A stretch of 64,000 bases of DNA from Thalassovita autumnalis (GTDB lineage: Bacteria; Pseudomonadota; Alphaproteobacteria; Rhodobacterales; Rhodobacteraceae), in NCBI RefSeq assembly GCF_001458255.1, contig NZ_CYSB01000004.1, positions 1-64,000 on the forward strand, written 5' to 3'. Under the pieces are notes generated by a model. That model saw only the letters and a program-made list of their open reading frames with translations, had not been told where the DNA came from and searched no databases. Below, one piece after another: positions 8,328-25,193 of this stretch; within the stretch, counting starts at the first letter, position 1; each line of letters opens with the position of its first letter. Position numbers and translations under genes: made by a program.

Positions 8328-8344
8328 TGTTTCCTCCAGATGAA

Positions 8345-8360
8345 ATTCATCCGAATGATT
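8345..8360. promoter_or_regulatory. Putative PhnF operator of the PhnDCE-like operon
   Basis: The sequence ATTCATCCGAATGATT matches the perfect palindrome at phnF (25192-25207) at 14 of 16 positions. It lies 18 bp upstream of the PhnD-like start codon, almost the same spacing as the phnC operator (18741-18756 before the start at 18722). This suggests that the PhnF repressor also controls this operon. Confidence 0.6.
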
Positions 8361-8492
8361 TCGAGGGAACACAAAACTCAAGTGACCCAAGTGCGAAGCT
8401 TTGATGAAATTACTTTGCTCACCAATGGCGGAGCTGGCTTGAGGTAACAGACACCACCGCCCCCCATGGGAGTCAGGCCGAAGGTAATGAAG

Positions 8493-10438: not shown

Positions 10439-10442
10439 CACT

Positions 10443-11726
10443 ATGTTTGCCAATTTTCTGAAAACGGCCAGCGTTGCGGCCCTTGCTACCGTGGCGTCTG
10501 CCGGTGCTTCGCTGGCGGTTGACCTTGAATTTTACTTCCCTGTCGCCGTTGGCGGCGCCGCGGCTGACACCATTGAACAGCTGACCGCAGAATACGGCGC
10601 AGCCAATCCCGATGTGAACATCACCGCGATCTATGCCGGTTCCTATTCGGACGCAGGCCAGAAAGCCCTGACCGCAGCACGTGGCGGTACACCGCCGCAA
10701 TTGTCGGTTCTGCTGTCGACCCAAATGTTTGCCCTGATCGACGAAGACGTGATTGTGCCTTTCGATGCCTACCTCACCGATGAGGAAAAAGCAGAATGGA
10801 TCGGCGGCTTCTACCCGTCCTTCATGGAAAACAGCCAGACCGGTGGCAAGACCTACGGCATCCCGTTCCAGCGCTCGACCCCGGTTCTCTACTGGAACAA
10901 AGAGGCGTTCAAGGCAGCCGGCCTCGACCCTGAAGTGGCCCCGGCCAACTGGGACGAAATGGTCGAAATGGGCAAAGCCCTGACGCTGAAAGATGACGCG
11001 GGCAACGTGACCCAGTGGGGCGTGCGGATCCCTTCGGCCGGCTTCCCCTATTGGCTGTTCCAGGGTCTGTCGACCCCGGCGGGTGCAATCCTGGCCAGCG
11101 CCGACGGCAACAAGGTGAACTTCAACGACGCCAAAGTGGTTGAGGCGCTGGAGTATCTGGTCGATCTGTCCAAGACCCATGAGATCATGCAGCCCGGTTC
11201 CATCGAATGGGGCCCCACACCGAAAGCCTTCTTTGAAGGTGAAACCGCAATGATGTGGACCACCACCGGCAACCTGACCAACGTCCGCAGCAACGCACCG
11301 TTCGATTTCGGTGTGGCAATGCTGCCGGCCAAGGAACGCCGTGGCGCGCCGACCGGCGGTGGCAACTTCTACCTGTTCAAGGACTCCACCGACGAACAGA
11401 AAGACGCGGCTGTAGATTTCGTGCAGTGGATCACCGCCCCTGAGCAAGCCGCAACCTGGTCGATCGCAACCGGTTACATCGCCCCGCGCGCCGAAACCTG
11501 GGACACCGACAAAATGAAGGCCTACACCGCCGATTTCCCGCAGGCGCTGGTTGCCCGCGATCAGCTGGAATTTGCGGTTGCTGAGCTGTCGACCTTTGAA
11601 AACGGCAAAGTGACCCAGGCGTTCAATGACGCCCTGGCCGCAGCCATCGCCGGTGAAAAGACCGCACAGGACGCTCTGGACGAAGCGCAGGCGAAAGCTG
11701 AGCGCATCCTGAAGCCTTATCAGTAA
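10443..11726 (+). CDS. ugpB: UgpB-like extracellular substrate-binding protein
   Basis: A 427-residue periplasmic binding protein with a signal peptide (MFANFLKTASVAALATVASA, cleavage before VDLEF). Several stretches resemble glycerol-3-phosphate-binding UgpB: YGIPFQRSTPVLYWNKEAFK, a GLDPE segment, the MMWTTTGNLTNVR segment and a C-terminal QDALDEAQAKAE helix. The longer open frame from 10302 runs inside ugpC and is not used. A strong hairpin follows at 11745-11768, typical after highly expressed binding proteins. The ligand may be glycerol 3-phosphate or another phosphodiester or phosphonate. Confidence 0.75.
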   Translation: MFANFLKTASVAALATVASAGASLAVDLEFYFPVAVGGAAADTIEQLTAEYGAANPDVNITAIYAGSYSDAGQKALTAARGGTPPQLSVLLSTQMFALIDEDVIVPFDAYLTDEEKAEWIGGFYPSFMENSQTGGKTYGIPFQRSTPVLYWNKEAFKAAGLDPEVAPANWDEMVEMGKALTLKDDAGNVTQWGVRIPSAGFPYWLFQGLSTPAGAILASADGNKVNFNDAKVVEALEYLVDLSKTHEIMQPGSIEWGPTPKAFFEGETAMMWTTTGNLTNVRSNAPFDFGVAMLPAKERRGAPTGGGNFYLFKDSTDEQKDAAVDFVQWITAPEQAATWSIATGYIAPRAETWDTDKMKAYTADFPQALVARDQLEFAVAELSTFENGKVTQAFNDALAAAIAGEKTAQDALDEAQAKAERILKPYQ

Positions 11727-11744
11727 GCCCTGAACACGCCAAAG

Positions 11745-11768
11745 CCCTGTCCGGTTTTCCGGGCAGGG
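11745..11768 (+). terminator. Intercistronic hairpin after ugpB-like gene
   Basis: A stem of CCCTG-T-CCGG and CCGG-G-CAGGG closes a TTTT loop. No uridine run follows, so it is more likely an mRNA-stabilising or partial-termination element that raises binding-protein over permease expression. Confidence 0.6.
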
Positions 11769-11791
11769 ATTGCCCCAGAAGGAACCACAAA

Positions 11792-12670
11792 ATGGACACC
11801 GCGCGCCGCCAATGGATCTATGCCTGGCTGATGCTCAGCCCGGCTATGGCGTTTTTGATCCTGTTCACCCACTACCCGGCGGTGCAAACCATCTTGAACT
11901 CCTTCTATTCAACCCCGCGCGGGCGACGCGAAGCGGTTTGGATCGGGTTGGACAATTACCAGACCTTGATGCTGGATGACGTGTTCTGGAAGGTCCTTGC
12001 AAATAACTTCTGGTACGCGGTTTGGACCATCCCGCTCTCAATCATTCTGTCCCTGGCGATGGCGCTGTGGGTGAATGACAAGATCCGCGGTCGTGGCTTC
12101 CTGCGCATGGCCTATTTCACCCCCACGGTTCTGCCCCTGATCGCGGTCGCCAATATCTGGCTGTTTTTCTACACCCCCGGCTTTGGCCTGATTGACCAGA
12201 TCCGCGGCCTGTTTGGCCTGCCCGAACAGAACTGGATGGGATCGCCGGACACCGCCCTTTACGCCATGATCGCCGTGGCCATCTGGAAAGAGGCCGGGTT
12301 CTTCATGATCTTTTACCTTGCCGCCCTGCAGACGGTTTCACCCAGCCTGAAAGAAGCTGCTGACATCGAAGGGGCGTCACGCTGGTACTACTTCCGCCGG
12401 GTGCTGTTTCCCCTGTTGATGCCGACCACGTTGTTTGTGTCGATCAACGCGGTGATCAATTCGTTCCGGCTGGTCGACCATATCTTTGTCATGACCGAAG
12501 GCGGGCCGAACAACGCCTCTTCGCTGCTGCTGTTCTACATCTACGAGGTGGCGTTTGATTATTGGGATACCGCCTACGCCGCGACCTTGACGGTGGTGAT
12601 GATCGCAATCCTGATCTTGCTGGCGATTGGGCAATTCTTCCTCTTTGACAGGAAGGTGCATTACAAATGA
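11792..12670 (+). CDS. ugpA: Ugp-like ABC transporter permease (UgpA type)
   Basis: A 292-residue inner-membrane permease with six predicted membrane segments. The EAA loop reads EAADIEGASRWYYFRRVLFPLL, near residues 190-212. It belongs to the CUT1 permease family. It overlaps the second permease by four bases. Assignment as UgpA follows from the operon context. Confidence 0.82.
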   Translation: MDTARRQWIYAWLMLSPAMAFLILFTHYPAVQTILNSFYSTPRGRREAVWIGLDNYQTLMLDDVFWKVLANNFWYAVWTIPLSIILSLAMALWVNDKIRGRGFLRMAYFTPTVLPLIAVANIWLFFYTPGFGLIDQIRGLFGLPEQNWMGSPDTALYAMIAVAIWKEAGFFMIFYLAALQTVSPSLKEAADIEGASRWYYFRRVLFPLLMPTTLFVSINAVINSFRLVDHIFVMTEGGPNNASSLLLFYIYEVAFDYWDTAYAATLTVVMIAILILLAIGQFFLFDRKVHYK

Positions 12671-13473
12671 CCTATGATCGCCTCTTGAACACGGCGGCCG
12701 CCTGGATGCTGGCGCTGTTCTGGCTCTTGCCGCTGGCCTATGCGGTCTGGACCGCCTTTCACCCCGCGGCCTATGAAACCCGCTTTGACCTTCTGGCGCC
12801 GCTGACGCTGCAGAATTTCGCACAGGCCTGGTCCGAAGCGCCCTTTGCACGCTACTTCCTCAACACAATGATCCTGGTCACCGGCATCGTCGCGGCACAG
12901 TTCACGCTGTGTACCTTTGCTGCATTCGCCTTTGCCCGCTTCACCTTTCCCGGCAAGTCGATCATGTTCGCGCTGGTGCTGATGCAGCTGCTGATCATGC
13001 CCGACATCCTGATCGTCGAAAACTATCGCACGATGAGTCAGCTGGGCCTGATTGACACCATAGCCGCCATCGGCCTGCCCTATGTTGCCTCTGCCTTTGG
13101 TATCTTTCTGCTGCGCCAGACCTTCATGACCGTACCCAAAGAACTGGATGATGCCGCGCGGGTCGAAGGGTGCAGCTATCTGGGCATTCTGTGGCGGGTC
13201 TATATCCCGCTGGCAAAACCCACATTCCTGGCCTACGGTCTGGTGTCCGTCAGCCACCACTGGAATAACTTTGTCTGGCCGCTGATCGTCACCAATTCCG
13301 TAGAAACCCGCCCCCTGACCGTGGGCCTGTCGATTTTCGCTGTCACGGACAGCGGCATCCAATGGTCCATCATCAATGCGGCCACGCTGATGACCTCAGG
13401 GCCTTTGCTGATCGCCTTCCTGCTTTTCCAACGCCAGTTCGTGCAGAGTTTCATGCGCGCCGGCATCAAATAA
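12667..13473 (+). CDS. ugpE: Ugp-like ABC transporter permease (UgpE type)
   Basis: A 268-residue partner permease of the CUT1 family with about six membrane segments. The EAA motif is DAARVEGCSYLGILWRVYIP, around residues 162-181. It is ATGA-coupled to the upstream permease gene. The pair forms the membrane channel of the ugp-like importer. Confidence 0.82.
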   Translation: MTYDRLLNTAAAWMLALFWLLPLAYAVWTAFHPAAYETRFDLLAPLTLQNFAQAWSEAPFARYFLNTMILVTGIVAAQFTLCTFAAFAFARFTFPGKSIMFALVLMQLLIMPDILIVENYRTMSQLGLIDTIAAIGLPYVASAFGIFLLRQTFMTVPKELDDAARVEGCSYLGILWRVYIPLAKPTFLAYGLVSVSHHWNNFVWPLIVTNSVETRPLTVGLSIFAVTDSGIQWSIINAATLMTSGPLLIAFLLFQRQFVQSFMRAGIK

Positions 13474-13519
13474 CCCTCACGCCTTGTGGCCGTTTTCTGG
13501 GCTCTGAAAGGATATCTAT

Positions 13520-14338
13520 ATGACCGACCTCCCTGTTGTTGGCGCCGCGCTGCCGTTGAACCAGTTCATCGAAATGCGCGATGTCATGTTTGGCCATGAC
13601 CGCGATCTGGAGCTGCAGGATTTCCACAATCCGCAGCTGCTGGACAGCGATTACAGCGCGCTTGTGGACCGCGCCAAAGCCGCGCTGACGGGATATGGTG
13701 GCCGCCACGGCATTCACGGCCCTTTCTGGGATCTGCCGTTGGCCACCTGGGATCCGCAGATCCGCGGAGTGATCCATGACCGCATGTTCAAGGCGCTGGG
13801 GATCTGTGAGGCCTTGGGCAGCACACATATGGTGGTGCACAGCCCCTATCTGGAATGGGACCACCGCAACATCATGCATTACCCCAACGCCAAAGAAGGC
13901 ATCTTTGAGCGGTTCCAGGAAACCATGGCCCCTGTGGTGAAACGCGCAGAAGAGGTTGGCACAACCCTGGTTCTGGAAAACATCGGTGATATCGATCCGC
14001 ATTTCCGTGTCGAACTGGCGGCCTCGCTGGGATCAGATGCCTTGCAGATCTCCGTGGACACGGGCCATGCCCATTATGCCCACGGTGCCTGCGGTGCGCC
14101 GCCGGTGGATTATTACATCAAGGCCGCTGGGGTCCGGTTGCAGCATGTCCATCTGCAGGATGCCGACGGCTACGCCGATCGCCATTGGGCACTGGGCGAA
14201 GGCACAATCCGCTGGGATGCGGTATTCCGTGCCATCGGTCAGCTGAACAGCAAGCCGCGCCTTATCATTGAGGTCTACGGCGATCAGAGCGTTGCACGGT
14301 CAATCGCCTACCTGCAAAGCAAAGGCCTGGCGCAATAA
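13520..14338 (+). CDS. Sugar phosphate isomerase/epimerase family protein
   Basis: A 272-residue AP-endonuclease-2-type TIM-barrel protein. Metal- and substrate-type motifs are visible: a VVHSPYLEWDH segment, VLENIGDIDP, ISVDTGHAHYAHG with the conserved DTGH, LQHVHLQDADG and the C-terminal LIIEVYGD. Family members isomerise or epimerise sugars or sugar phosphates, or act on related small molecules. It is the last gene of the ugp-like operon, where other systems carry a UgpQ phosphodiesterase, so it may process the imported compound. The substrate is unknown. Confidence 0.78.
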   Translation: MTDLPVVGAALPLNQFIEMRDVMFGHDRDLELQDFHNPQLLDSDYSALVDRAKAALTGYGGRHGIHGPFWDLPLATWDPQIRGVIHDRMFKALGICEALGSTHMVVHSPYLEWDHRNIMHYPNAKEGIFERFQETMAPVVKRAEEVGTTLVLENIGDIDPHFRVELAASLGSDALQISVDTGHAHYAHGACGAPPVDYYIKAAGVRLQHVHLQDADGYADRHWALGEGTIRWDAVFRAIGQLNSKPRLIIEVYGDQSVARSIAYLQSKGLAQ

Positions 14339-14474: not shown

Positions 14475-15101
14475 CTAACGATACTTCTCGATAAAGGCAT
14501 CAATCGGCAGGGCGCGGATGTCCGGCAGGGCCGCCTTATACGTATCGCGGTCCCAGTTCCAGACCGCGATGTCCTGCAGGGCCTCGGCCTGTTCTGTGCT
14601 GAACCTGCGTTTGATGACCCGCGCGGGCACACCGCCGACCACCGTGTAGGGATCTACATCGCGGGTCACAACGGCCCCTGCCCCGATCACCGCCCCCGTC
14701 CCGATGCGCACACCGGCCGTCACGGTCACCCCATGGCCGATCCAGACATCATGGCCGATATTCACCCAGTGATCCTTGCGCCAGTCAAAGAAATCATGAT
14801 CGTCGGCACCCAGTCCGTAGGCCTCGGCGCGATAGACGGAATGATGCTGCACCGCGCGCCAGGTCGGGTGATTGCCGGGGTTGATCCGGGTGGCATTGGC
14901 GATCGAGCAGAACTTGCCAATCGTGGCCCACACAACGTGGCAATGTTGGGTGATGTAGGAATAGTCCCCCATCTGCGCGGACTTCATCACCGTGCCTTTG
15001 CCCACCTCTGTCCATTGACCAAGGTCACAGTCGGTGACATCGGCCTCTGGATGGATGGTCGGGGCTTCGGACAGACGTTTCTTGGATCCTGCACCACTCA
15101 T
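14475..15101 (-). CDS. Phosphonate-cluster hexapeptide-repeat acetyltransferase
   Basis: A 208-residue left-handed beta-helix acyltransferase like those that recur in phn operons (chloramphenicol-acetyltransferase/DapH-like). Hexapeptide repeats are seen at [18 protein letters not shown] and again at [20 protein letters not shown], and a catalytic-type histidine lies in the [11 protein letters not shown] region. The ATG at 15101 overlaps the phnE2 stop (ATGA). Its acceptor is not established. It may acetylate an aminophosphonate, as PhnO does, but it is not homologous to PhnO. Confidence 0.8.
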
Positions 15102-15955
15102 TTCGCACCATCCCATTTGCCGATAATGCGCTGACGGATCAGGCCTGACAGGTAGTCGATCAGATAGACCATCGCGATGATCAAAAAGATGATTGACCAG
15201 GCTTCATCCCATTTATAGGCCGCGATCCGATCCGAGAGCAGGAAGCCAATCCCCCCGGCCCCGACAATCCCCAGGATCGTGCCCGAGCGGACATTGGATT
15301 CGAAGTTGTACAGCAGGATCGACAGGATCACCGGATTGACCTGCGGGGCAATGGCATATCGGATCTGCTGCAAACGGGATCCACCTGAAGCCTTAACCCC
15401 ATCCACGGGCTTTTTCGATGTGTTCTCAATCGCTTCGGAAAACAGTTTGGCAAAGGTGCCGATTTCTGAGACCGCAATCGCCAGGATGCCCGGCAGCGGA
15501 CCAAGGCCAAAGGCGCGGATAAAAATCAGCGCAAGGATAAGGGTTTCAAAGGCACGGATCACATCATAGCCCCGGCGTGTGGTCTGGCGCAGCAGGCTAA
15601 AGCGGTTAATGTTCTTGGCCCCCAGGAACGACAGGGGAAAAGCCACGATCGCGCCCAATAGGGTGCCAAGGAAGGCAATCGCCAATGTCTCCCCCAGGCC
15701 GTTCAGAACCTCGGAAAAGTCGCGCCAATTGTCCCAGACATGGGGCGGAAACATGAAGCTGAGAACCGTGCCGAGACGCCCCAGTCCCGTCCAGATCCGT
15801 TCAGGACTGAAATCAAAGGCCCAGAGGCAGTAGCAGAACAGCCCGATAAACCCGGCCCACAGTGCCGCCCGGCGCAGACGCACCGGCAAGGGCGCCTGAA
15901 AGGCCAACGGCACACGCTCTTTGGCTGCGGCGATCTCTTTTGCTGTTAGGGTCAT
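15098..15955 (-). CDS. phnE: Phosphonate ABC transporter permease PhnE2
   Basis: A 285-residue PhnE permease with an N-terminal cytoplasmic stretch and about six membrane segments. The EAA-like loop is [20 protein letters not shown], and the PhnE signature [16 protein letters not shown] follows. It overlaps both phnE1 (ATGA at 15952-15955) and the acetyltransferase gene. It probably forms a heterodimeric channel with PhnE1. Confidence 0.9.
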
Positions 15956-16905
15956 ACCCGGTCCTCCAGGCCAATCACGCGGTGGCGCAGTTTTTCTGAA
16001 CCGTAGTCAATGATCACAACGGTCACGAAGATGATGATGAAGAGAGCCGACAGGTCAGTGTATTCCTGAAAGGACATCGCGGTGCGAAACTCCTGCCCCA
16101 GCCCACCGGCGCCGACGTAGCCAATGATCGAACTGGCCCGAACGTTGATCTCAAACCGCAACAGGGTGTAGCTGAGGATGTTCGGCAGAACCTGCGGCAC
16201 AGCGCCGTATCGGATTTGGTCAAACCAGCTGCCGCCCGCGGCCTTCACGCCCTCAAGGGGGCGCATATCGATGTTCTCATTCACTTCGGAATAAAGCTTG
16301 CCCAATGCGCCCGTTGCATGCAGACCAATAGCCAGCACACCGGCCATTGGACCAACTGAGAAGCAGAAAACAAAAATCAGCGCCCAGACCAGTTCCGGCA
16401 CAGTGCGCGCGATTTCCAAGTAGCGGCGGGTGATCCACAGCACCCACGTGTTGGGTGCCAGATTGCGTGCCGCTGGAAAGGACAACAGGAACCCGCCGAA
16501 GACGCCAAAGACCGTCGCCATGAAGGCGATCAGGATGGTTTCAAACAGCAGGTTCATCCAGATCTTCCAGCGCCAGAACCAATTGGCCAGATCTGCCCCC
16601 AGAGTGTCCCAATGCAGGGTCGGGATGGTCTGCGAAATGTATTCCCCCAGCCGCGGCAGACCCGCCGGAATGATCCAGCGCCAGTCCCGCGATCCGTCAG
16701 GCAGGGTGATCTGCGTGACCTTGAAGAAATCGCCCAACCAACTGGACAACGCAAAGAGGATCAGGAACAGCGTGGTTCCCAAGGTCCAGTTGCGCAGAGA
16801 ACGGCGGCGTTGCGCGGCATAGGCACGCTCGAATTCAGCAAGGGTATCTGCGCCGCCGCCAGAAGCAGCCGCCGCACCCGCTGACAGATCAGCAGACATG
16901 GTCAT
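15952..16905 (-). CDS. phnE: Phosphonate ABC transporter permease PhnE1
   Basis: A permease of about 317 residues, with the EAA-like loop EGVKAAGGSWFDQIRYGAVP and the PhnE signature GYVGAGGLGQEF. The ATG at 16905 (or the second ATG at 16899) is chosen because the open frame upstream to 17019 runs through the phnD end and a terminator hairpin. It is separated from phnD by 59 bp containing that hairpin, and it overlaps phnE2 by four bases. Confidence 0.88.
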   Translation of the reverse strand: MTMSADLSAGAAAASGGGADTLAEFERAYAAQRRRSLRNWTLGTTLFLILFALSSWLGDFFKVTQITLPDGSRDWRWIIPAGLPRLGEYISQTIPTLHWDTLGADLANWFWRWKIWMNLLFETILIAFMATVFGVFGGFLLSFPAARNLAPNTWVLWITRRYLEIARTVPELVWALIFVFCFSVGPMAGVLAIGLHATGALGKLYSEVNENIDMRPLEGVKAAGGSWFDQIRYGAVPQVLPNILSYTLLRFEINVRASSIIGYVGAGGLGQEFRTAMSFQEYTDLSALFIIIFVTVVIIDYGSEKLRHRVIGLEDRV

Positions 16906-16920
16906 GAAAGGTCTTCCCAA

Positions 16921-16950
16921 CAAAGAAAAAGGGAGGGCGACAGCCCTCCC
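16921..16950 (-). terminator. Rho-independent-type terminator/attenuator between phnD and phnE1
   Basis: On the minus strand an 8-bp perfect stem, GGGAGGGC and GCCCTCCC, with a 4-base loop is followed directly by TTTTTCTTTG. That is a canonical intrinsic terminator shape inside the operon. It would lower permease relative to binding-protein expression. Confidence 0.75.
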
Positions 16951-16964
16951 TCCAGATCGATAGA

Positions 16965-17885
16965 TCAGCTGTTGCTGCGACGTGCGGCCTTGATCCAGGC
17001 GCGCATGTCCACGATCCACTGATAGCGGTCAGCGTCCACGCGGGTGAAGCCAACTTTGTTGTTGTCATCTTCCGGGTCATAGGACGAGTACAGCTTGAAG
17101 CCCTCAGGATCTTCGGCCGGGAAGGTTTCGATGACGGCGGTCACCTCTTCGATCATCTCGGCAGGCAGGTTCTTGCGGAACGTCCACGGGCCGGTGGTGA
17201 TTTCCGGGCTCTGCCAGATTTTGCAGATTTGACCGGGTTCGATCATGCCTTTGGCTTCCATGCGCTGATAGATGCCGTTTACGTCGTTGTTCTGATAGGT
17301 CGAGGCGGTGTCGAAAGTGCCGTTGTAAACGCCCTGCACGTCCGCTTCGTGGCTGCCACCAAAAGTTACGGTGCCAAAGTGCTCTTCCGGCTTGAAGCCC
17401 TCTTTGTTGACCATGTTCCAGTAAGGAACCGCATAGCCCGAGGTCGAGTCCGGATCGGCAAAGGCGTGAACCTTACCTTTGGCATCTTCCAGCGAGGTGA
17501 TGCCCGAGTCACAGCGGGTCACAACGATCGAGTAATAGCCGGTGGTGCCGTCTTTCTTGATGTCGGTCAGGGTCGGAACAACGCCACCGTTGGTCGCGGT
17601 ATAAGCCGCCGCGTAGGACGAGGAGCCCAGACGCGCGATTTCGATCTGATCGGCGGCCAGCGCCTGGATCACACCGTCATAGTTGCCTGCGGTGAAGATC
17701 TCGACCTCGATACCCAGCTTTTCTTCCAGGTATTTTTCCAGCGGCGTGTAGCGCGCGATCCGGTCTTTTTCGTTCTCGCCCGACAGAACGCCGAACTTCA
17801 GAACCTGATAATCGTCTTTCCAACCATCGGCCATAGCCGGGGCTGCGATGAGAGCCGCAAGAGCGGTGGCAGTGATAAAACGCAT
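16965..17885 (-). CDS. phnD: Phosphonate ABC transporter substrate-binding protein PhnD
   Basis: A 306-residue periplasmic protein with a signal peptide (MRFITATALAALIAAPAMA, cleavage before DGWKDD). Family features are RLGSSSYAAAYT, the phosphonate-binding motif DPDSTSGY, and GSHEADVQGVYNGTFDTAS. It delivers phosphonates to PhnE1/E2/PhnC. It lies 33 bp downstream of phnC in the same transcription unit and is followed by an intrinsic terminator. Confidence 0.93.
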   Translation of the reverse strand: MRFITATALAALIAAPAMADGWKDDYQVLKFGVLSGENEKDRIARYTPLEKYLEEKLGIEVEIFTAGNYDGVIQALAADQIEIARLGSSSYAAAYTATNGGVVPTLTDIKKDGTTGYYSIVVTRCDSGITSLEDAKGKVHAFADPDSTSGYAVPYWNMVNKEGFKPEEHFGTVTFGGSHEADVQGVYNGTFDTASTYQNNDVNGIYQRMEAKGMIEPGQICKIWQSPEITTGPWTFRKNLPAEMIEEVTAVIETFPAEDPEGFKLYSSYDPEDDNNKVGFTRVDADRYQWIVDMRAWIKAARRSNS

Positions 17886-17918: not shown

Positions 17919-18722
17919 TTAAGCCGGCACGGGTGTGCGGATTGCAGTAGAGGTGACGGCTTCGTTGAATTCTCTCAGCCCCTCGAGGCCATAGATGTCG
18001 CGGACGACATCGTCGGTCAGCTGTGCGGCGGTGCCGTCAAAGAACACGCGCCCCTGGCGCATGGCGATGATGCGGTCACAATAGGCGCGGGCAGTGTCGA
18101 GGGTGTGCAGATTGACCAGAACGGTGATCCCATCCTCGCGGTTGATGGTCTTAAGCCCATCCATAACGAGGGTGGCGTTTGCCGGATCCAGTGAAGCGAT
18201 AGGTTCATCGGCCAGCATGATCTTTGGCTGCTGCACCAGCGCTTTGGCGATGGCGACACGCTGCTGCTGCCCGCCCGAGAGGGTGCCCGCCCGCTGCAGG
18301 GCCTGCGGCACCAGATCCAGACGGTCCAGCGCCTGAATGGCCATCGCGCGCTCTTCATCGGAAAACCGCATCGCCATCGAGGACAGGAAGCCATGTTCGG
18401 CCAGCCGCCCGATCAGCACATTTGTCAGAACATCCAGACGTTCAACCAGATTGAACTGCTGGAAAATCATCGCGCAGTCACGCCGCCACGCCCGCAGCGC
18501 CTTGCCCTTGAGCGCGGTAATGTCCTTGCCGTCAAACAGGATCGATCCTTCGGTCGGATCGGCCAGCCGGTTGATCAACCGCAACATAGTGGACTTACCG
18601 GCGCCGGACCGGCCAATCACGCCGACGAACTGGCCGGGGCGAATATTCAGCGTTACATTGTCCACGGCACGGGTGTCACCAAAATGGCGCGACACGGCTT
18701 GCAGGGATAGCTCAGAACTCAT
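17919..18722 (-). CDS. phnC: Phosphonate ABC transporter ATP-binding protein PhnC
   Basis: A 267-residue ABC ATPase with Walker [10 protein letters not shown], the PhnC-typical stretch [20 protein letters not shown], signature [15 protein letters not shown], and Walker [13 protein letters not shown]. It is the first gene of the phnCDE1E2-acetyltransferase unit. A PhnF-type operator lies 19 bp upstream and a Pho box about 100 bp upstream, so it has its own promoter separate from phnFGHIJKLM. Confidence 0.94.
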
Positions 18723-18863: not shown

Positions 18864-20060
18864 TCAGGCGGGTTGCAGTATTGGCTGATCCAAAAGGGCA
18901 ACATCGCCCACAGAATGCACGAACCGACCGGCCCGCATTGTGGCTGTGACGCGCGGCAGCTTGCCCGTTTGAACAAAGGCAAGGTCGGCCAGCAGTCCCG
19001 GTTTGATCTCCCCCCGGTCTGTCAGGCCCAGCGCCTTGGCGGGGTTGCGCGTCACCAGCGCCATTGCGCCGGGCAGTCCAGCCGGATCGCTTTGCGCCAA
19101 TGTCATCACCGCGGTCAGCATCGCCCCCGGATGATAGTCCGAGGCCAGAATGTCCAGCAGCCCGTTTTCATGCGCCAGACGGGCCGATAGGTTGCCCGAA
19201 TAGCTTTGACCGCGCATCGCATTCGGCGCGCCCATGGCTGTCATCATGCCCCGTTCCGCACCGATCTCAGCAGCCTCCAGCGTGACCGGGAATTCGCTGA
19301 TCACCGCGCCGATGTCCGCCATCAGATGCGCTTTCTCGCGGATGTCATCGTCATGGCTGGCCAATGCAACTGCGCCAGCACGACACAGATCCGACACGGC
19401 CTTGAGGTTGCTCAAAATGACCTGCTGCGGGCGACTGCGCTCAGCAATCCGGGTAGTGACAATCTGCCGGGCCTGGGTTTCAGACACGCCCTCACGCTTT
19501 GCGAGCTGGCGAATGTGTTGTTCCAGATCGCGGTACTGCCCCTGCCCCGGCGTGTGATCCATGACCGAAACCAGATCCACCTGCCCGTCCCGGATCAGAT
19601 CGCGCAACACTTCAACGGCGTTATCAAAGGTAATGTCGAACCGGGCATGAATACGGTGATCCACGGCACAGTGAGCACGCAGCGCATGCAGACTGCGGAT
19701 CACCTGACTGGTGTGCTCAAAAGAACGCCGTTCGCCGCTGCGCACCCCGCGCGAGAAGCTGACAGCCGCATAGGCTGTCGTGATCCCACAGGCCGCAAGC
19801 CGCGCATCCAGATGGGCAAGGGCCACCTCCATCGGGAAATCGACGTTTGGACGTGGCTCCAACTCGACCTCAATCATGTCACCATGCATGTCGATGAACC
19901 CGGGTGCGACCAGCGCGCCACCACAGTCGATGCCATGGTCCACGGGGGTTTCGCGCACCTCGGCAATGCGATCCCCGTCGATCCGCAACGCCCCGCTGCT
20001 GATCACCCGATCCGATAAGACAAGGGACAGATTAGACAACCACATCTTCGCGCTCCTCAT
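18864..20060 (-). CDS. phnM: Alpha-D-ribose 1-methylphosphonate 5-triphosphate diphosphatase PhnM
   Basis: A 398-residue amidohydrolase that releases pyrophosphate from the triphosphate intermediate to give the substrate of PhnJ. The metal site segment IDMHGDMIEVELEPRPNVDFP and the later SHDDDIREK and LASDYHPGAMLTAV segments match the family. The start is ATG 20060 (or ATG 20045), overlapping the end of phnL. It ends the phnFGHIJKLM unit. A 25-bp dyad spans the stop codon but has no T-run. Confidence 0.92.
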   Translation of the reverse strand: MRSAKMWLSNLSLVLSDRVISSGALRIDGDRIAEVRETPVDHGIDCGGALVAPGFIDMHGDMIEVELEPRPNVDFPMEVALAHLDARLAACGITTAYAAVSFSRGVRSGERRSFEHTSQVIRSLHALRAHCAVDHRIHARFDITFDNAVEVLRDLIRDGQVDLVSVMDHTPGQGQYRDLEQHIRQLAKREGVSETQARQIVTTRIAERSRPQQVILSNLKAVSDLCRAGAVALASHDDDIREKAHLMADIGAVISEFPVTLEAAEIGAERGMMTAMGAPNAMRGQSYSGNLSARLAHENGLLDILASDYHPGAMLTAVMTLAQSDPAGLPGAMALVTRNPAKALGLTDRGEIKPGLLADLAFVQTGKLPRVTATMRAGRFVHSVGDVALLDQPILQPA

Positions 20061-20748
20061 TTTCCAAGCCTGGTGTCAGGTCGATCACACGGTCAATCAG
20101 CTGCGCCACATCATCGGGATGATGAAACACACCGATCATCGCGGTGCCGGCCGCCTTCAGCTCCCTCAGGCGGGCAACCAATGCGGCGCGCGCTTTCACA
20201 TCCAGCGAGGCGGTCGGCTCATCCAGCAGCAACAGTTTCTGTGGCAGGATCAACGCCCGTGCCAGATTGACCTTCTGCTGTTCCCCGCCTGAGAAAGTCG
20301 TCGGGTAGGCCCGCCACAAATCTTCCTTCACGCCAAATTCCGCCAGCCATTTGCGTGCTTCCTTCAGGGCTGCCTCAGCCGATTGGCCCGCCAACCTCAG
20401 AGGTTCCGCCACCAGAGCCTCGGCAGAGACGCGGGGGCGTGCGACAAGAAACTGGGTGACGAACCCGATCTCCTCGCGCCGCAGCAAGGTGATATCCACA
20501 TCAGCCGCCCGCAAGAGGTCAATCGCCCCATGGTTTGAATGAAAGATCACCTGCCCCGCCTGTGCGATATAAGACCGGTAAAGCGTGCGCAGCAGCGTCG
20601 ATTTCCCGGCGCCGTTTTGGCCTTTCAGCAGCAGAAACTCCCCAGCCCTCAGATCAAAAGAGATCTGATCAAAGGCCGCCAAGTGGTTGCCCAGATGGTG
20701 CATCGTGAAGCCTTTGGTCAGGCCCTGAACTTCGAGAACGGTTGTCAT
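20032..20748 (-). CDS. phnL: C-P lyase accessory ATPase PhnL
   Basis: A 238-residue ABC-type ATPase with Walker A GQNGAGKST, signature FSGGEQQKVNLARAL and Walker B LLLLDEPTASLD. PhnL proteins bind the C-P lyase core and are not membrane importers. It overlaps phnK by four bases. Confidence 0.93.
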   Translation of the reverse strand: MTTVLEVQGLTKGFTMHHLGNHLAAFDQISFDLRAGEFLLLKGQNGAGKSTLLRTLYRSYIAQAGQVIFHSNHGAIDLLRAADVDITLLRREEIGFVTQFLVARPRVSAEALVAEPLRLAGQSAEAALKEARKWLAEFGVKEDLWRAYPTTFSGGEQQKVNLARALILPQKLLLLDEPTASLDVKARAALVARLRELKAAGTAMIGVFHHPDDVAQLIDRVIDLTPGLENEEREDVVV

Positions 20749-21542
20749 AGCTTTGCGTGCACCAATTGTTGCGTATAGGCATGTTGCGGATCTTGGAAAA
20801 TCTGATCGGCCAGTCCGGCCTCCACCACTTCGCCGCGGCGCATGACCATCACGCGGTCCGCCAGCGTGCGGATCACCCCAAGGTCATGGGAAACGATCAC
20901 CATGGTGATCTTGCGGTCCTGTTGCAGCCGTTTCAGCGTGTCCAGCACCAGGGCCTGAACGCTGACGTCCAGCCCGGTAGTCGGTTCATCCAGCAGCAGC
21001 AGCGCAGGCTCCAAAGCGATTGCCTTGGCCAGTTGCACACGCTGTTGCATCCCCCCTGACAGTTCTGCCGGAGGCGCATCCAGACGATCCAGTGGAAACT
21101 CCGATGCCTCCAGCGCATCGCTGGCTTTTTCGCGCAAGACCGCAAAGCGGCGCTCCCCAGCGACCAGCAGGCGTTCGGCCACATTGCCCGAGGAGGAATG
21201 TTTCATCAGCAGCCCCAGATGTGGGTTCTGATAGACAATCCCGATCCGCGTGGCACAGAGCATCCGACGGGCGAACCGGTCCAGATCGAACAGATTACCC
21301 TCAACCTCGGGCAGATCCAGCGTGTAGCTGCCGCTGTCAGGTGTTTCTTCCAGATTAAGCATCCGAAGGAAAGTAGATTTCCCCGATCCGCTTTCGCCAA
21401 CAATGCCCAGTACTTCGCCCGGGAAGACCTCGACCGAAACACTCCGCACCGCCTGAACCGCTCCATAGGTCTTGCTGACGTTCTGCGCCCGCAGCAGCGG
21501 TGCGGCCTTTATCAGTTTGGGTGCATCTATCGTGATAGTCAT
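20745..21542 (-). CDS. phnK: C-P lyase accessory ATPase PhnK
   Basis: A 265-residue ABC-type ATPase with Walker A GESGSGKST, signature LSGGMQQRVQLAKAI and Walker B LLLLDEPTTGLD. It contains the PhnK-typical insertion GIVYQNPHLGLLMKHSSSGN. In E. coli PhnK docks on PhnJ. It is ATGA-coupled to phnJ. Confidence 0.93.
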   Translation of the reverse strand: MTITIDAPKLIKAAPLLRAQNVSKTYGAVQAVRSVSVEVFPGEVLGIVGESGSGKSTFLRMLNLEETPDSGSYTLDLPEVEGNLFDLDRFARRMLCATRIGIVYQNPHLGLLMKHSSSGNVAERLLVAGERRFAVLREKASDALEASEFPLDRLDAPPAELSGGMQQRVQLAKAIALEPALLLLDEPTTGLDVSVQALVLDTLKRLQQDRKITMVIVSHDLGVIRTLADRVMVMRRGEVVEAGLADQIFQDPQHAYTQQLVHAKL

Positions 21543-22453
21543 GACGGCATCTCCCCGTCGGTATACCAGGTTTCGCCAAATTCAACGCGCTCACCTTCGG
21601 CTTGTTTGATGGTTTTGACGCCGAACTCGCTATCCGAAATCTCATAGGTCGAAGATCCGTCATCCTGCGGAATTTCGTTCATGAAGAACCCCTTGGCGCC
21701 AGAGCGATTGCAGGTCAGACCCCCATGGTCTTCGACCTTGTAGGGCACATCGTCAAAGACCAGCGGTTCAACCCGTGTGAAGGGCGGCACCGCGTGAATA
21801 CGTTTTTCGCGCCCCGCCGACAGGATGGTCAGATGCTTGGCCATATGCAGTTTCGGCACATCCCAGCGTGGGATCGGCGATGGTGTCATCACGTGACGCC
21901 CGTTCACCAGCGACGGGTAGCTAGCCCCCTGCATCACCCGGCCTGAACGCACGATCTGTTCATAGAGCTGCAGCCACATACGGCCATAATCCGCATCCGC
22001 ATGCATTTGCCGCGCGATTGACATATTGGGCTGCACCGGGCGCAGCGGTTCGGGGTTAGGCACCTGCAACACCAGCACCTGATCCTCACGCAGCTTTTCT
22101 TCGGGGATGCGGTGGCGTGATTGGATCAGATCCGCCTCAAGCGTGTCCAAAGTGGTCGGCGCACCGGACACCCGCGCCAGAAAACGGCGGATGGAGGCGG
22201 CATTGACGGAATCATCGGCGCCCTGATCGATCACCTTGACCCGTTTGGACGGGTTCATCAGGGTCAGTGACACCTGCAAGCCCCCGGTGCCCCAGCCGCG
22301 TGCCATTGGCACCTCACGGCTGGCATAGGGCATCTGACAGCCGGGCACGGCCACGGCCTTTAGCATTTTGCGCCGGATCTCACGCTTGGCTGAGGCATCG
22401 AGGAAACCATAGCTCATCGGCTCCCAGTTTTTGGTCAATGTTGCAAGGCTCAT
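21539..22453 (-). CDS. phnJ: C-P lyase subunit PhnJ, divergent, lacking most Fe-S/radical cysteines
   Basis: A 304-residue homologue of alpha-D-ribose 1-methylphosphonate 5-phosphate C-P lyase, the radical-SAM enzyme that breaks the carbon-phosphorus bond. Family similarity is strong throughout: RGWGTGGLQVSLTL, KVIDQGADDSVNAASIR, QSRHRIPEEKL, TPSPIPRWDVPKLHM and AGREKRIHAVPPFTRVEPL. In E. coli PhnJ the C-terminal region has C241-x2-C244, C266 and C272. Here the aligned region (about 244-278) has only C248. The E. coli FVCSDTDYC segment is YEISDSEFG, so the positions of C266 and C272 are Ile and Gly. The frame is continuous with no sign of a frameshift, and a tail of about 25 residues follows. 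The start overlaps the phnI stop (ATGA). Confidence 0.9.
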   Translation of the reverse strand: MSLATLTKNWEPMSYGFLDASAKREIRRKMLKAVAVPGCQMPYASREVPMARGWGTGGLQVSLTLMNPSKRVKVIDQGADDSVNAASIRRFLARVSGAPTTLDTLEADLIQSRHRIPEEKLREDQVLVLQVPNPEPLRPVQPNMSIARQMHADADYGRMWLQLYEQIVRSGRVMQGASYPSLVNGRHVMTPSPIPRWDVPKLHMAKHLTILSAGREKRIHAVPPFTRVEPLVFDDVPYKVEDHGGLTCNRSGAKGFFMNEIPQDDGSSTYEISDSEFGVKTIKQAEGERVEFGETWYTDGEMPS

Positions 22454-23505
22454 TCGGCTGGCTCCTTCCGGGATGCGGCTTTCGCTTTGGCGTCCCGCAT
22501 TGCGTCCAATGAAGATTGGAACGTCACGTAGTGGGGCAGTTTGAAGTGAATACAGAAGCCCGAGCTTTCGACACCTTCGGTGTGGTAGATGAAGAACTCT
22601 TCTTCGGTGGCAGATCCCTTTTCAGCACCAGCGCTGTTCAGATCCAAAGTTGCGGCAGAGATGCATTTGACCTCATTCCAGCCCAGCGTGGCGGCAAACC
22701 CCAACTCCAGCTTTTCGCCTTTCTTGGACACCACTTCAGCCTGGCTCACCTTGACGCGACCTGCCGAAAACGCGGTGCCATTGGGGTGGCGCACCATGAT
22801 ATCGGCCTCAGCAAGGCGCAGCTCATTCACAGTGGGATGGGCCTGCCCGTAACCGCGCATCGCTGCATAGCCCAGCGCCAGTGCGCCGCCTGTTTCAGCA
22901 CGGGCCAGACTTTGCAGCGTATGCGCCCGCTTGGCTGGAAACAGCAGCGGTTCGCGGGTCACATCCGGGATATCTTCGGGCGCGGTGTCATCAATTGGCG
23001 GCAGGTCCACCAGATCGTTATCCGCCTGCCATGCCGCGACTGAGGGCTGATAGGCCGGTGCGGGCTGTGCCGCAGGCTCCACCTCCGCCGGTTTGAAGGG
23101 GAACCCGTTTAGAACATCCGTGGCCAAAATCCGGTGCGAGTAGTCCAGCGTTGGCCCCAAAACCTGCCCCCCCGGAATATCCTTGAACGCGGCCGAGATC
23201 CGGCGATGAGTAAACAGCGCGTCCTGCGTGATGGGATCAGCGACCTGCAAACGCGGCTGCGTCGTACGCCAAGCCCGCAGGACCAATACCGCCTCAAACA
23301 ATTCCCCCCCGGTTTGGGCGAGCGCCAAAGCAGCCAGATCCTCATCATAAAGCGAGGCTTCGCCCATCACCCGGTCAATCAGATAGGGCATGGCCGCTTT
23401 GATTTCGGCCACGCGGGCTTCGGTAATTTCGCCCATTTCAGCACGGAACAAACGCTCTGCCTGTTCAATCGCGCGTTCACCGCCACGGGTTGCAACATAG
23501 GCCAT
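22450..23505 (-). CDS. phnI: C-P lyase subunit PhnI (nucleosidase component)
   Basis: A 351-residue PhnI, close to the usual 354. PhnI with PhnG, PhnH and PhnL transfers phosphonate to the ribose 1-position of ATP. Recognisable parts are ATRGGERAIEQAE at the start, HRRISAAFKDIPGGQVLGPT, MRGYGQAHPTVNELR and the C-terminal FKLPHYVTFQSSLDAM with the metal-binding histidine. Its start shares one base with the phnH stop and its end overlaps phnJ. Confidence 0.93.
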   Translation of the reverse strand: MAYVATRGGERAIEQAERLFRAEMGEITEARVAEIKAAMPYLIDRVMGEASLYDEDLAALALAQTGGELFEAVLVLRAWRTTQPRLQVADPITQDALFTHRRISAAFKDIPGGQVLGPTLDYSHRILATDVLNGFPFKPAEVEPAAQPAPAYQPSVAAWQADNDLVDLPPIDDTAPEDIPDVTREPLLFPAKRAHTLQSLARAETGGALALGYAAMRGYGQAHPTVNELRLAEADIMVRHPNGTAFSAGRVKVSQAEVVSKKGEKLELGFAATLGWNEVKCISAATLDLNSAGAEKGSATEEEFFIYHTEGVESSGFCIHFKLPHYVTFQSSLDAMRDAKAKAASRKEPAE

Positions 23506-24041
23506 TACAGCACCTCCACTTGGGTGGAACGCGGCATGCCCAGCACCCAGTCACCATCCACCAGAAACAGATCAAACCCCATCGGATACCGGATCCGCTG
23601 CCGCCGCAGGTCCCAGAACCCCTCGGGCAAGCTACCAACAGTGACCTCAACCGTGGTTTCGATCCCCGGCCCTGTCAGGCGCAGCTTTGGGCCTTGGCCA
23701 AGCACCGCGCGCACCACAAGGGTTGCGCCATCATCGGGGTAAAGGTGACTGCCCAGATCAAGGCCGTTCACAACGTCCAAATCCTGCAGAGCGCCCGCGA
23801 AAACATGATCCGCTGCGGGCAAGTCAGCAACAATCGCGCCGGTGGCAAGAACTATCGGCATCAGTAGCGGGTCGGCACAAAAGACGCGGCATTCACGATC
23901 GAGCAACGCCTCAATGATCGACGCTTCACCGGGTTGGGGCAGCCTCTGGATCGAACCCGGTCGGCTAAGCGCGGTCAGCAAGGCGTCGAAAGCTTGGTTC
24001 GAACGGCGCTCCGCCTCGGAGGGGATGGGTATCGCAGTCAT
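23505..24041 (-). CDS. phnH: C-P lyase subunit PhnH
   Basis: A 178-residue PhnH, a structural core subunit of the C-P lyase complex. Recognisable stretches are NQAFDALLTALSRPGSIQRLP and the C-terminal GFWDLRRQRIRYPMGFDLFLVDGDWVLGMPRST (quoted here in parts of a longer family motif: RIRYPMGFDLFLVDG). The ATG at 24041 forms TGATG with the phnG stop. An upstream in-frame ATG at 24083 would sit inside phnG and is not favoured. Confidence 0.92.
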   Translation of the reverse strand: MTAIPIPSEAERRSNQAFDALLTALSRPGSIQRLPQPGEASIIEALLDRECRVFCADPLLMPIVLATGAIVADLPAADHVFAGALQDLDVVNGLDLGSHLYPDDGATLVVRAVLGQGPKLRLTGPGIETTVEVTVGSLPEGFWDLRRQRIRYPMGFDLFLVDGDWVLGMPRSTQVEVL

Positions 24042-24460
24042 CAGAACGTCTCCATATCGACGCGGGTGGCTTCCACCTGACAAAGGCGCGCGTGGTCTTC
24101 CGCCGCCTGTGTGCGCTGCTGGGCGTCAAGGAATGCCTGACACTCGGCAGACGCAATGCCGCTTTGCAGGGCCGCATCGATCAGGGCCATGGCCATGGCC
24201 GCTTCCAGATCGCGACCACGGCGCATGCCGTAACCTTCGATGTCACCACATGTGATATGCGCCTCACTGACCAGCGCCTCACCAAGGTGAAAGGCTGTGC
24301 CCTGCGCCGTATCGCGCATGGGCAGCATGACCAGACCGGTCTGGCTTTTCAGCACTTCGACGTCGCCCAACAGCGGGATCAGCGTTTCCGCAAAGGGCTT
24401 TATTGCCTCCGCTCCGCTTCTTGCCAAAATGCTAAGGTGTGAGGAGTGAGGCGTTTCCAT
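24041..24460 (-). CDS. phnG: C-P lyase subunit PhnG
   Basis: A 139-residue PhnG, close to the E. coli size of 150. Family features are the N-terminal HLSILARSGAEAIKPFAE, GLVMLPMRDTAQGTAFHLGE, GYGMRRGRDLEAAMAMALID and TRVDMETF at the end. It starts just 4 bp after the phnF stop and shares its own stop codon base with phnH. It belongs to the PhnGHI nucleosidase core. Confidence 0.92.
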   Translation of the reverse strand: METPHSSHLSILARSGAEAIKPFAETLIPLLGDVEVLKSQTGLVMLPMRDTAQGTAFHLGEALVSEAHITCGDIEGYGMRRGRDLEAAMAMALIDAALQSGIASAECQAFLDAQQRTQAAEDHARLCQVEATRVDMETF

Positions 24461-24464
24461 TTCG

Positions 24465-25193
24465 CTACTTCCTGTCAGTGGACATTGAGAATTTCACACG
24501 CAGCGCCGACCAGATCACTTCCTTGTAGCTGAGCGCTGTGCCCTCCAGCGTTTCATCCAGGGCGCGGATCACCACGACGGGGCTGTCGACGTGCTGCTTG
24601 AGCATCTTGGCCTCTTCCGGGCGTGCCAGACGGCTGTGCAGGGTGGTTTCGGCCCGCAGATAATCGTGGATCCCGTAGGTCTTATAGGCCTGCGTGGTTG
24701 AGCCCAGCACATCGCGGCGGGCTGCAAAATCAGGGAATTTTTCCGGGTCGTGATAAGAAGCGCCAAAGGCAATCGGGACAGCGTTGCCATAGGTGATGCG
24801 GCGGCTTTCCAGCACTGGCGCCCCGGGGATCATCCCCAGCGCCTGTGCCACACGCTCGCTCGATTTGACCAGCTGCGCCGACAGCAACGCGCTAGACATC
24901 TCAACACCCTGAGCGCCGAGGTTTTTGCTTAACCTCGTGCGTGCCCCGATCTCATACTCCAGCAAAGGAGCCGTTTCGACAAAGGTGCCCCGCCCCTGCT
25001 CGACACTTAGCGTGCCCTCTTTGGACAGCTCTGAAACGGCGCGGCGAACCGAATGACGCCCGGCCCCGAACTGCGCTGCAAGCTCCGGCTCAGTAGGCAA
25101 TTTTGCCCCGGGTTGGAATACGCCCGCTTCGATATCCTGTTTCAGCTGGTCACGCACCAACCGCCATTTTTCTTTCACCATCAGACCGCTCAT
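24465..25193 (-). CDS. phnF: GntR/UTRA phosphonate regulator PhnF
   Basis: A 242-residue GntR repressor of the HutC/UTRA subfamily. The winged helix is LPTEPELAAQFGAGRHSVRRAV, near residues 28-49. The UTRA ligand domain includes SERVAQALGMIPGAPVLESRRI and ends with EVIWSALRVKFSM. It is the first gene of phnFGHIJKLM. The ATG at 25193 lies inside a perfect operator palindrome. A second ATG at 25181 (MVKEKW) is an alternative start, as neither has a strong ribosome binding site. Autoregulation is very likely. Confidence 0.92.
   Translation of the reverse strand: MSGLMVKEKWRLVRDQLKQDIEAGVFQPGAKLPTEPELAAQFGAGRHSVRRAVSELSKEGTLSVEQGRGTFVETAPLLEYEIGARTRLSKNLGAQGVEMSSALLSAQLVKSSERVAQALGMIPGAPVLESRRITYGNAVPIAFGASYHDPEKFPDFAARRDVLGSTTQAYKTYGIHDYLRAETTLHSRLARPEEAKMLKQHVDSPVVVIRALDETLEGTALSYKEVIWSALRVKFSMSTDRK

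Follow-up and report, generated by a model that had tools for sequence, protein, structure and literature searches.

A 64,000-nucleotide stretch of the genome of Thalassovita autumnalis (contig NZ_CYSB01000004.1, positions 1 to 64,000; referred to here as the window) carries a complete phnFGHIJKLM-CDEE operon for carbon-phosphorus (C-P) lyase in which three of the four metal-site cysteines of PhnJ are gone. The window phnJ is a conserved copy under purifying selection. We give a probability of roughly 0.5 to the reading that this and similar variants are functional PhnJ proteins devoid of the iron-sulfur (Fe-S) and thiyl radical site, whose complex would form 5-phosphoribosyl 1,2-cyclic phosphate (PRcP) by polar chemistry at the zinc site of PhnI and PhnJ. 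The conservation, the selection, the complete operon and the intact zinc site are observed, and the reading presumes that the complex assembles. The mechanism of C-P cleavage by PhnJ is unsettled, and natural enzymes that have the zinc site only would provide a direct test of it. Statements attributed to papers by PubMed Central number refer to excerpts of those papers.

Identity and residues of the window PhnJ

In Escherichia coli PhnJ, C241, C244 and C266 are assigned to the cluster and C272 to radical attack (PMC7916636), and the four cysteines are treated as conserved (PMC11978286). The window phnJ (21539 to 22453, minus strand) starts with ATG and is unbroken over 304 amino acids. Its product matches PF06007 from residue 13 to residue 281 (E value of 1.5e-116; 388.7 bits against a Pfam cut-off of 25) and the E. 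coli PhnJ of the PDB over residues 13 to 277 (phmmer, E value of 1.7e-81). The whole protein contains two cysteines, C39 and C248. In the family alignment, C248 (codon at 21710 to 21712, minus strand) corresponds to E. coli C241 and is the sole metal-site cysteine remaining, while S251 (21701 to 21703), I272 (21638 to 21640) and G278 (21620 to 21622), all encoded on the same strand, take the places of C244, C266 and C272, the last being the proposed thiyl radical. The initial annotation had described a PhnJ homolog without the Fe-S and thiyl cysteines, with a continuous reading frame, just two cysteines and C248 alone in a C-terminal region aligned by eye; the PF06007 match, the residue reading and the family alignment, which gives the same pairing, confirm this description. 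Canonical cysteines elsewhere in the protein would have spoken against it, and the family alignment places none beyond C248. Judged from its sequence, the gene lacks three of the four cysteines that define a SAM (S-adenosylmethionine)-radical C-P lyase, yet it belongs to the PhnJ family.

Zinc-site and glycyl residues are retained. R113 and H114 (codons at 22112 to 22117, minus strand) correspond to E. coli R107 and H108, which contact the zinc-site ligand (PMC9947105), and G38 (22340 to 22342, minus strand), with C39 next to it, corresponds to Gly32, the proposed glycyl radical. An AlphaFold2 model of the window PhnJ has a pLDDT (predicted local distance difference test) score of 88.5 overall and of 91 to 94 over residues 241 to 300, and Foldseek matches it along its whole length to chain 7z19_D of the E. 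coli complex (template modeling score of 0.93 by target, 276 columns). The confidence of this full-length model predicts that the C-terminal domain would fold without its metal ligands.

Among the closest known systems is that of E. coli (PDB entries 4xb6 and 7z15 to 7z19; PhnGHIJKL complex), with which the window shares family, fold, 48% identity in PhnJ, the core gene set, the zinc-site residues and Gly32. It differs in the replacement of C244, C266 and C272, in a longer C-terminal tail of PhnJ and in an operon without phnN, phnO and phnP. No title or abstract on PhnJ lacking these cysteines was found among the literature matches listed, in a search that mostly did not extend to subscription papers. 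The excerpts of PMC10574752 mention variant phn operons but not a cysteine-less PhnJ, and PMC6852614 and PMC9381506 do not mention cysteine.

Distribution, origins and conservation of the variant

Residues were read in 85 variant loci from Alphaproteobacteria, Chloroflexota, Deinococcota (including Thermus) and Bacillota. This number is the sum of five reads (46, 19, 8 and 11 loci, plus locus L254) after removal of recognized same-genome repeats, and a genome reached via two collections may still be counted twice in it. C244 and C272 are gone in all 85 loci. C266 is gone in 66 and retained in 19, all of them Caryophanaceae, and C241 is gone in 7, where Asp replaces it (L069 and six Deinococcota). 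By comparison, all four cysteines are present in every one of 70 canonical sequences, and further full PhnJ sequences outside the variant groups likewise have all four. Chance loss is excluded by the recurrence of the C244 and C272 loss in 85 loci beside non-variant full PhnJ proteins that all have four cysteines. The replacements, whose conservation the initial annotation had proposed as a test, are restricted, with Ser or Thr at 244 and, in most cases, Gly, Ala or Met at 272. In six Deinococcota (L230 to L235; regions L245 to L249) the Asp takes the place of the last cysteine, so that all four metal-site cysteines are gone. A half-way state is seen in Caryophanaceae loci L127 to L145, in which C244 and C272 are replaced and C241 and C266 retained; in L125 (Solibacillus palustris) and L126, C266 is lost as well, and stages of loss are therefore visible.

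The variant was counted among genomes with PhnJ in several lineages: 10 of 89 Rhodobacteraceae-family genomes with a PhnJ match, 21 of 47 in Caryophanaceae, 9 of 28 in Chloroflexota and 11 of 14 in Deinococcota. The Rhodobacteraceae-family figure comes from a draw of 198 genomes, in which the 10 relatives of the window PhnJ (79 to 100% identity, all confirmed by residues) are set apart from a next match at 53% identity; nine of these genomes have a second match at 46 to 49% identity, and one (G074) has the variant only. The variant is rarer across the class Alphaproteobacteria, with 2 of 66 matches in 385 genomes (at least 87% identity, the window's own included, the rest at most 52%; residues read for L003 and L254 only). 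The draw of 200 Caryophanaceae genomes was read by residue in 30 of the 47 with PhnJ, and the other 17 (at most 73% identity) were classed by identity. Among 301 Chloroflexota genomes, the 28 with a match include a weak fragment (L182), and the residue reads exclude the PhnJ of L180. The 111 Deinococcota genomes yielded 30 matches, 16 of which are stray (below 24 bits), leaving the 14 full PhnJ. Two of 296 genomes drawn from the class of an Erysipelotrichaceae genome have PhnJ, one of them variant, and a scan of genome contigs found 32 of the best 80 loci to lack C244 and C272. Wrong binning may explain how L068 (unclassified) and L070 (a Bacteroidetes metagenome-assembled genome [MAG]) are labeled.

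In a tree of 116 PhnJ sequences, 42 variants from Alphaproteobacteria, Chloroflexota and Thermus form one clade, here called clade A (support 100/98), and 4 Bacillota variants are placed among canonical Bacillota. The proposal that cysteine-poor PhnJ proteins form a clade therefore stands for these 42 sequences and not for the Bacillota variants, which arose separately. When the cysteine domain was excluded, an 85-row tree needed three changes, of which at least two were forced. A single clade of all variants was rejected by the approximately unbiased (AU) test (P = 0.0153), which implies that cysteine loss arose at least twice; a single clade of the Bacillota variants was not rejected (P = 0.529). 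The 85 rows of the trees without the cysteine domain were chosen by hand, and all trees exclude the 11 Deinococcota variants of the phylum draw.

The PhnJ of Thermus thermophilus HB8 plasmid pVV8 is about 60% identical to the window PhnJ and reads Cys-Thr-Val-Met at the four positions; its phn operon has Ugp-like permeases and a TIM (triosephosphate isomerase) barrel gene nearby, as in the window, and differs from it by Tyr at position 33 and by how the operon starts. The Bacillota variants (Solibacillus palustris, a Ureibacillus MAG, 19 more Caryophanaceae and two more distant Bacillota) have likewise lost C244 and C272 and kept the zinc site, and are distinguished from clade A by their separate origin and by a PRcP-diesterase-like gene in the operon. 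In those of the Caryophanaceae, position 244 is Thr and position 272 is Met, with Leu in a single case, and C266 is retained in 19 of 21.

The ratio of nonsynonymous to synonymous substitution rates (dN/dS) was 0.020 to 0.131 in eight variant pairs and 0.023 to 0.075 in four canonical pairs, rough values as several dS exceed 1; two pairs that include the window PhnJ gave 0.037 and 0.058 (also rough, with dS above 1.4). Low dN/dS together with recurrence in 85 loci leads us to reject the view that the gene is a duplicate in decay or an artifact of sequencing or assembly. We consider this view scarcely credible even though a canonical phnJ is present in the same genome, since the operon is full and the variant is the sole PhnJ of many genomes. 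The initial annotation had named sequencing error, or a second canonical phnJ beside a decayed copy, as grounds for abandoning its claim. Loss of C244 and C272 in 85 loci disposes of the former; the second copy does exist, and the window copy is not decayed.

That second PhnJ lies on another contig (C26, 169027 to 169836; locus L001) and has four cysteines. Canonical PhnJ of this genome and of other Rhodobacteraceae is about 49% identical to the window PhnJ and belongs to an operon of its own with phnG, H, I, J, K, L and M, which has phnN (L033) and a gene order unlike that of the window. A search for second copies covered 27 variant genomes (for T. thermophilus HB8, the plasmid only). Among 18 alphaproteobacterial variant genomes, 15 have a second PhnJ at 46 to 52% identity, classed by match, and 3 do not. 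In all 5 non-alphaproteobacterial clade A genomes and all 4 Bacillota genomes of this search, PhnJ is matched by the variant alone. The variant is likewise the only full-length PhnJ in 21 Caryophanaceae, 9 Chloroflexota and 11 Deinococcota genomes (with an extra stray match of 22.9 bits in G1466), many of which are drafts or MAGs in which a second copy may have been missed. This suggests that the variant works in those genomes without a canonical partner, and we reject a general role as helper or heteromer of canonical PhnJ because of the many genomes in which it is the only match.

The zinc site and the reaction of the variant complex

In the E. coli complex, zinc at PhnI H328 and H333 holds a ligand modeled as PRcP, in a preparation made without phosphonate, and PhnJ R107, H108 and Q124 surround that ligand; the Fe4S4 site, described as putative, is about 30 Å away from Gly32 (PMC9947105). 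The variants retain this zinc site. R107, H108 and Q124 are present in 85 of 85 variant loci, PhnJ residues 47 to 50 in 46 of 46, and the PhnI zinc histidines H219, H328 and H333 in 39 of 39, with these histidines also intact in the later variant loci in which PhnI was read. H219 is changed in 1 of 45 canonical PhnI proteins and also in L180 and L181. The catalytic Glu is retained in PhnK (E171, 40 of 40 variants) and PhnL (E175, 28 of 28); these denominators vary because some loci lack or did not yield every gene.

We also compared conserved positions between the groups. Among the 94 positions of PhnJ at which 90% or more of the 70 canonical rows agree, 244, 266 and 272 alone are changed in both variant groups, defined as no more than 10% kept among the 42 clade A rows (0 observed) and no more than one kept among the 4 Bacillota variants. 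The same test found no such position among 61 conserved positions of PhnI, 58 of PhnK and 38 of PhnL. In these alignments, the convergent change is confined to the cysteine site of PhnJ. Clade A by itself departs from canonical PhnJ at additional positions, and variant and canonical Caryophanaceae are discriminated by 16 positions in PhnI, 16 in PhnM and 12 in PhnJ, a count that does not single out PhnJ. The clade, replacement and selection results support what the initial annotation had offered as alternatives from sequence, namely a variant C-P lyase that works by different chemistry or a PhnJ that serves another role.

Since the variants retain exactly the zinc site and drop the cysteine site, a radical-free step at the zinc site is the most economical reading. 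The variant PhnJ would remain a subunit of its own PhnGHIJKLM complex, in which PhnG, H, I and L would attach a phosphorus compound to ribose and PhnM would then trim the product. The bond at phosphorus would be broken at the zinc site of PhnI and PhnJ, where His108, Arg107 and zinc may enable an attack of the ribose 2-OH on phosphorus that expels the leaving group and yields PRcP without SAM, an Fe-S cluster or a thiyl radical. A diesterase would open PRcP, in Bacillota presumably a PhnPP-like protein (so named from sequence) and in the window clade perhaps a TIM-barrel protein encoded at 13520 to 14338 or a GpdQ/SpdA-like enzyme. The substrates are, at a guess, phosphate esters or activated phosphonates that polar chemistry can cut. 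For the window clade, the presence of Ugp-like transporters and of phosphodiesterases points to esters of phosphate or phosphonate, which is again a guess; Ugp- and Phn-type binding proteins are both able to take up glycerol phosphates according to excerpts of PMC12718374, in which this operon is not mentioned.

The window TIM-barrel gene (plus strand) encodes an AP (apurinic/apyrimidinic)-endonuclease-like protein (PF01261, E value of 8.9e-27) with the CbiR phosphodiesterase as its best NCBIfam match (47.6 bits, cut-off 105), and we regard it as a candidate PRcP or glycerophosphodiester phosphodiesterase. Its relatives adjoin 16 of 58 clade A loci (window included), compared with none of the 37 canonical loci outside Bacillota (P = 0.00016) and none of the 31 within it, and span Alphaproteobacteria, Chloroflexota and Deinococcota at 190 bits or more, except for Thermus at 60 bits. 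Paired Ugp-like permeases occur in 11 of 58 clade A loci and in none of the same 37 canonical loci (P = 0.0058). These P values ignore kinship and unequal flanks, the groups were set by hand, and canonical alphaproteobacterial loci number only 6. In L047, L049 and L214, the gene adjoining the Ugp genes encodes a GpdQ/SpdA-like phosphodiesterase instead.

Several observations weigh against a polar, PRcP-forming reaction. Retention of C241 in 78 of 85 loci has no reason that we can assign, and Gly32, for which a non-radical enzyme would have no use, is retained in 46 of 46 and later variants, its neighbors being conserved too. A methyl group is an implausible leaving group in polar chemistry, which leaves two options: other substrates, or a radical model that does not hold for the intact complex. 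The three PhnPP-like proteins scanned, those of L104, L114 and L186 (298.7, 299.1 and 308.9 bits; next family at most 126), are all under the curated cut-off of 500. PhnP was found in none of the 58 clade A loci, PhnPP in one and PhnN in five, and any candidate diesterase, pooled, is not enriched (20 of 58 versus 11 of 37 canonical non-Bacillota loci, P = 0.66). Finally, although the polar model needs a shift in substrates, variant and canonical Caryophanaceae are nearly alike in their operon and in the tail-pocket residues of PhnD.

A bolder form of the proposal, in which the variants are a recurrent C-P lyase that cuts true C-P bonds at the PhnI/PhnJ zinc site without Fe-S cluster, SAM or thiyl radical, is tentative, and we consider it possible rather than probable. 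If true, it would mean either a second C-P chemistry or that the accepted radical model of PhnJ is wrong for the intact complex. The variant forms of phnJ may not make methane, though phnJ serves as a marker of methane release from methylphosphonate (PMC11978286).

The likeness of the Caryophanaceae operons bears on an alternative that we regard as unlikely, namely that in all C-P lyases the four-cysteine site of the intact complex is structural or regulatory, like a zinc ribbon, that genuine C-P bonds are cleaved at the zinc site of PhnI and PhnJ, and that the variants have dropped the ribbon metal while performing the same reaction on the same substrates. Variant and canonical Caryophanaceae share a core operon with a PRcP-diesterase-like gene: the 11 variant operons fetched have the order phnG, H, I, J, K, M, L, a PhnPP-like gene, a phnD-sized gene, phnC, E and E, and 7 of 9 canonical operons fetched share it. 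L104 and L114 match this order as far as their sequence reaches. A hexapeptide transferase sets L197 and L198 apart, the former of which also departs in gene order. The gene preceding phnG in the 11 variant operons is phnF-like in 6 and unassigned in 5. The zinc site, retained in every variant read, and a C-terminal domain that still folds in the model also fit a structural role for the cysteines, as does the distance of about 30 Å between the cysteine site and Gly32, which has been termed confusing (PMC7916636). Against it stand the in vitro work on E. coli PhnJ, according to which the cluster depends on C241, C244 and C266, and radical attack on C272 (PMC7916636), and the four cysteines of all 70 canonical rows.

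Less likely still, the variant PhnJ could be a scaffold in a complex that ribosylates phosphonate or phosphate without bond cleavage, for detoxification, storage or delivery to a PhnX-like lyase. Genes for phnX (TIGR01422, above cut-off) and a TIGR03364 flavin adenine dinucleotide (FAD)-oxidoreductase, calls based on one scanned protein of each, adjoin the variant operon in L061, L067 and L070, an arrangement that hints at a tie with the use of aminoethylphosphonate, and the 15 of 18 alphaproteobacterial genomes with a second PhnJ at 46 to 52% identity are compatible with such a role. A scaffold would, however, leave idle the PRcP-diesterase-like gene (best NCBIfam match, PRcP diphosphodiesterase NF041661), which is kept in 15 of 15 Bacillota variant loci and found in 28 of 31 canonical Bacillota loci, and it does not account for the full retention of R107, H108 and Q124.

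We consider it very unlikely that radical chemistry is kept, with the radical made elsewhere by a separate activase that charges Gly32, as in pyruvate formate-lyase, and with another residue such as C39 in place of C272. Gly32 is indeed present in 46 of 46 variants, and position 33 is Cys in 28 of 46 variants versus 2 of 70 canonical sequences. It is also Tyr in 17 variants and His in 1, however, so that there is no common replacement, and C39, beside Gly38, is rejected on the same count as a general stand-in for the lost site. No radical-SAM gene was seen near the operon among the gene clusters shared by at least five variant loci, an inspection by eye of one sequence per cluster that could miss small or split genes and did not extend genome-wide.

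PhnD offers a weak lead. At its position of contact with the ammonium of 2-aminoethylphosphonate, the three canonical Rhodobacterales rows have Asp and the variant rows have Asn or Thr, in a loop that is poorly aligned and with a different PhnD taken for the row of L037; Bacillota PhnD has no change at this position.

The window operon and its neighbors

The window operon runs on the minus strand from 25193 down to 14475 in the order phnF, G, H, I, J, K, L, M, C, D, E, E, followed by a hexapeptide transferase gene. The other core genes are intact, as the initial annotation had stated and Pfam upholds. Curated NCBIfam cut-offs are passed by PhnF, a GntR/UTRA regulator (24465 to 25193; TIGR02325); PhnH (23505 to 24083; TIGR03292; PF05845, E value of 3e-32); PhnM, the ribosyl-phosphonate triphosphate diphosphatase (18864 to 20060; NF011988, 484.7 bits, cut-off 369); the transporter ATPase PhnC (17919 to 18722; TIGR02315, 331.1 bits, cut-off 266.1); the substrate-binding protein PhnD (16965 to 17885; TIGR03431, 270.7 bits, cut-off 261.1); two PhnE permeases (15952 to 17019, start uncertain, and 15098 to 15955; TIGR01097, 257.2 and 277.7 bits, cut-off 216.7); and the hexapeptide-repeat transferase of phosphonate operons (14475 to 15116; TIGR03308, 278.5 bits, cut-off 201.65). 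PhnG (24041 to 24460; PF06754, E value of 1.9e-23) falls below its NCBIfam cut-off (86.1 bits, cut-off 89), as do the ATP-binding cassette (ABC) subunits PhnK (20745 to 21542; best match TIGR02323, 228.8 bits, cut-off 302.85) and PhnL (20032 to 20748; best match TIGR02324, 237 bits, cut-off 256.3). PhnI (22450 to 23505; PF05861, E value of 1.5e-105) retains H219, H328 and H333 in E. coli numbering; it and the window PhnJ have no NCBIfam matches.

A divergent block (8544 to 14338) adjoins the operon and comprises a DeoR/GlpR-type regulator, whose match is also under the curated cut-off, a Ugp-like ABC transporter of the glycerol-phosphate type (9347 to 13473, plus strand) and the TIM-barrel gene. 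The best NCBIfam matches of the transporter are UgpB, UgpA and UgpE, all below cut-offs, and its binding protein matches UgpB of the PDB (E value of 2.4e-33). Neither PhnP nor PhnPP was found near the window operon, where the TIM-barrel gene is the sole candidate diesterase. Beyond the block lies a second phosphonate-type module (3978 to 8390, minus strand) with PhnD-, PhnC- and PhnE-like genes, a methyltransferase gene and a gene for a second PhnM-like amidohydrolase. A GpxB-type glycerol-phosphate transporter was considered here and rejected, as the binding protein (7458 to 8390) is closer to PtxB and matches GpxB (9lf9) weakly. PhnM-like genes also adjoin other variant operons (L034, L037 and L254), and canonical Rhodobacterales operons (L033 and L220 to L225) mostly have two of them, one beside phnF and one after phnN.

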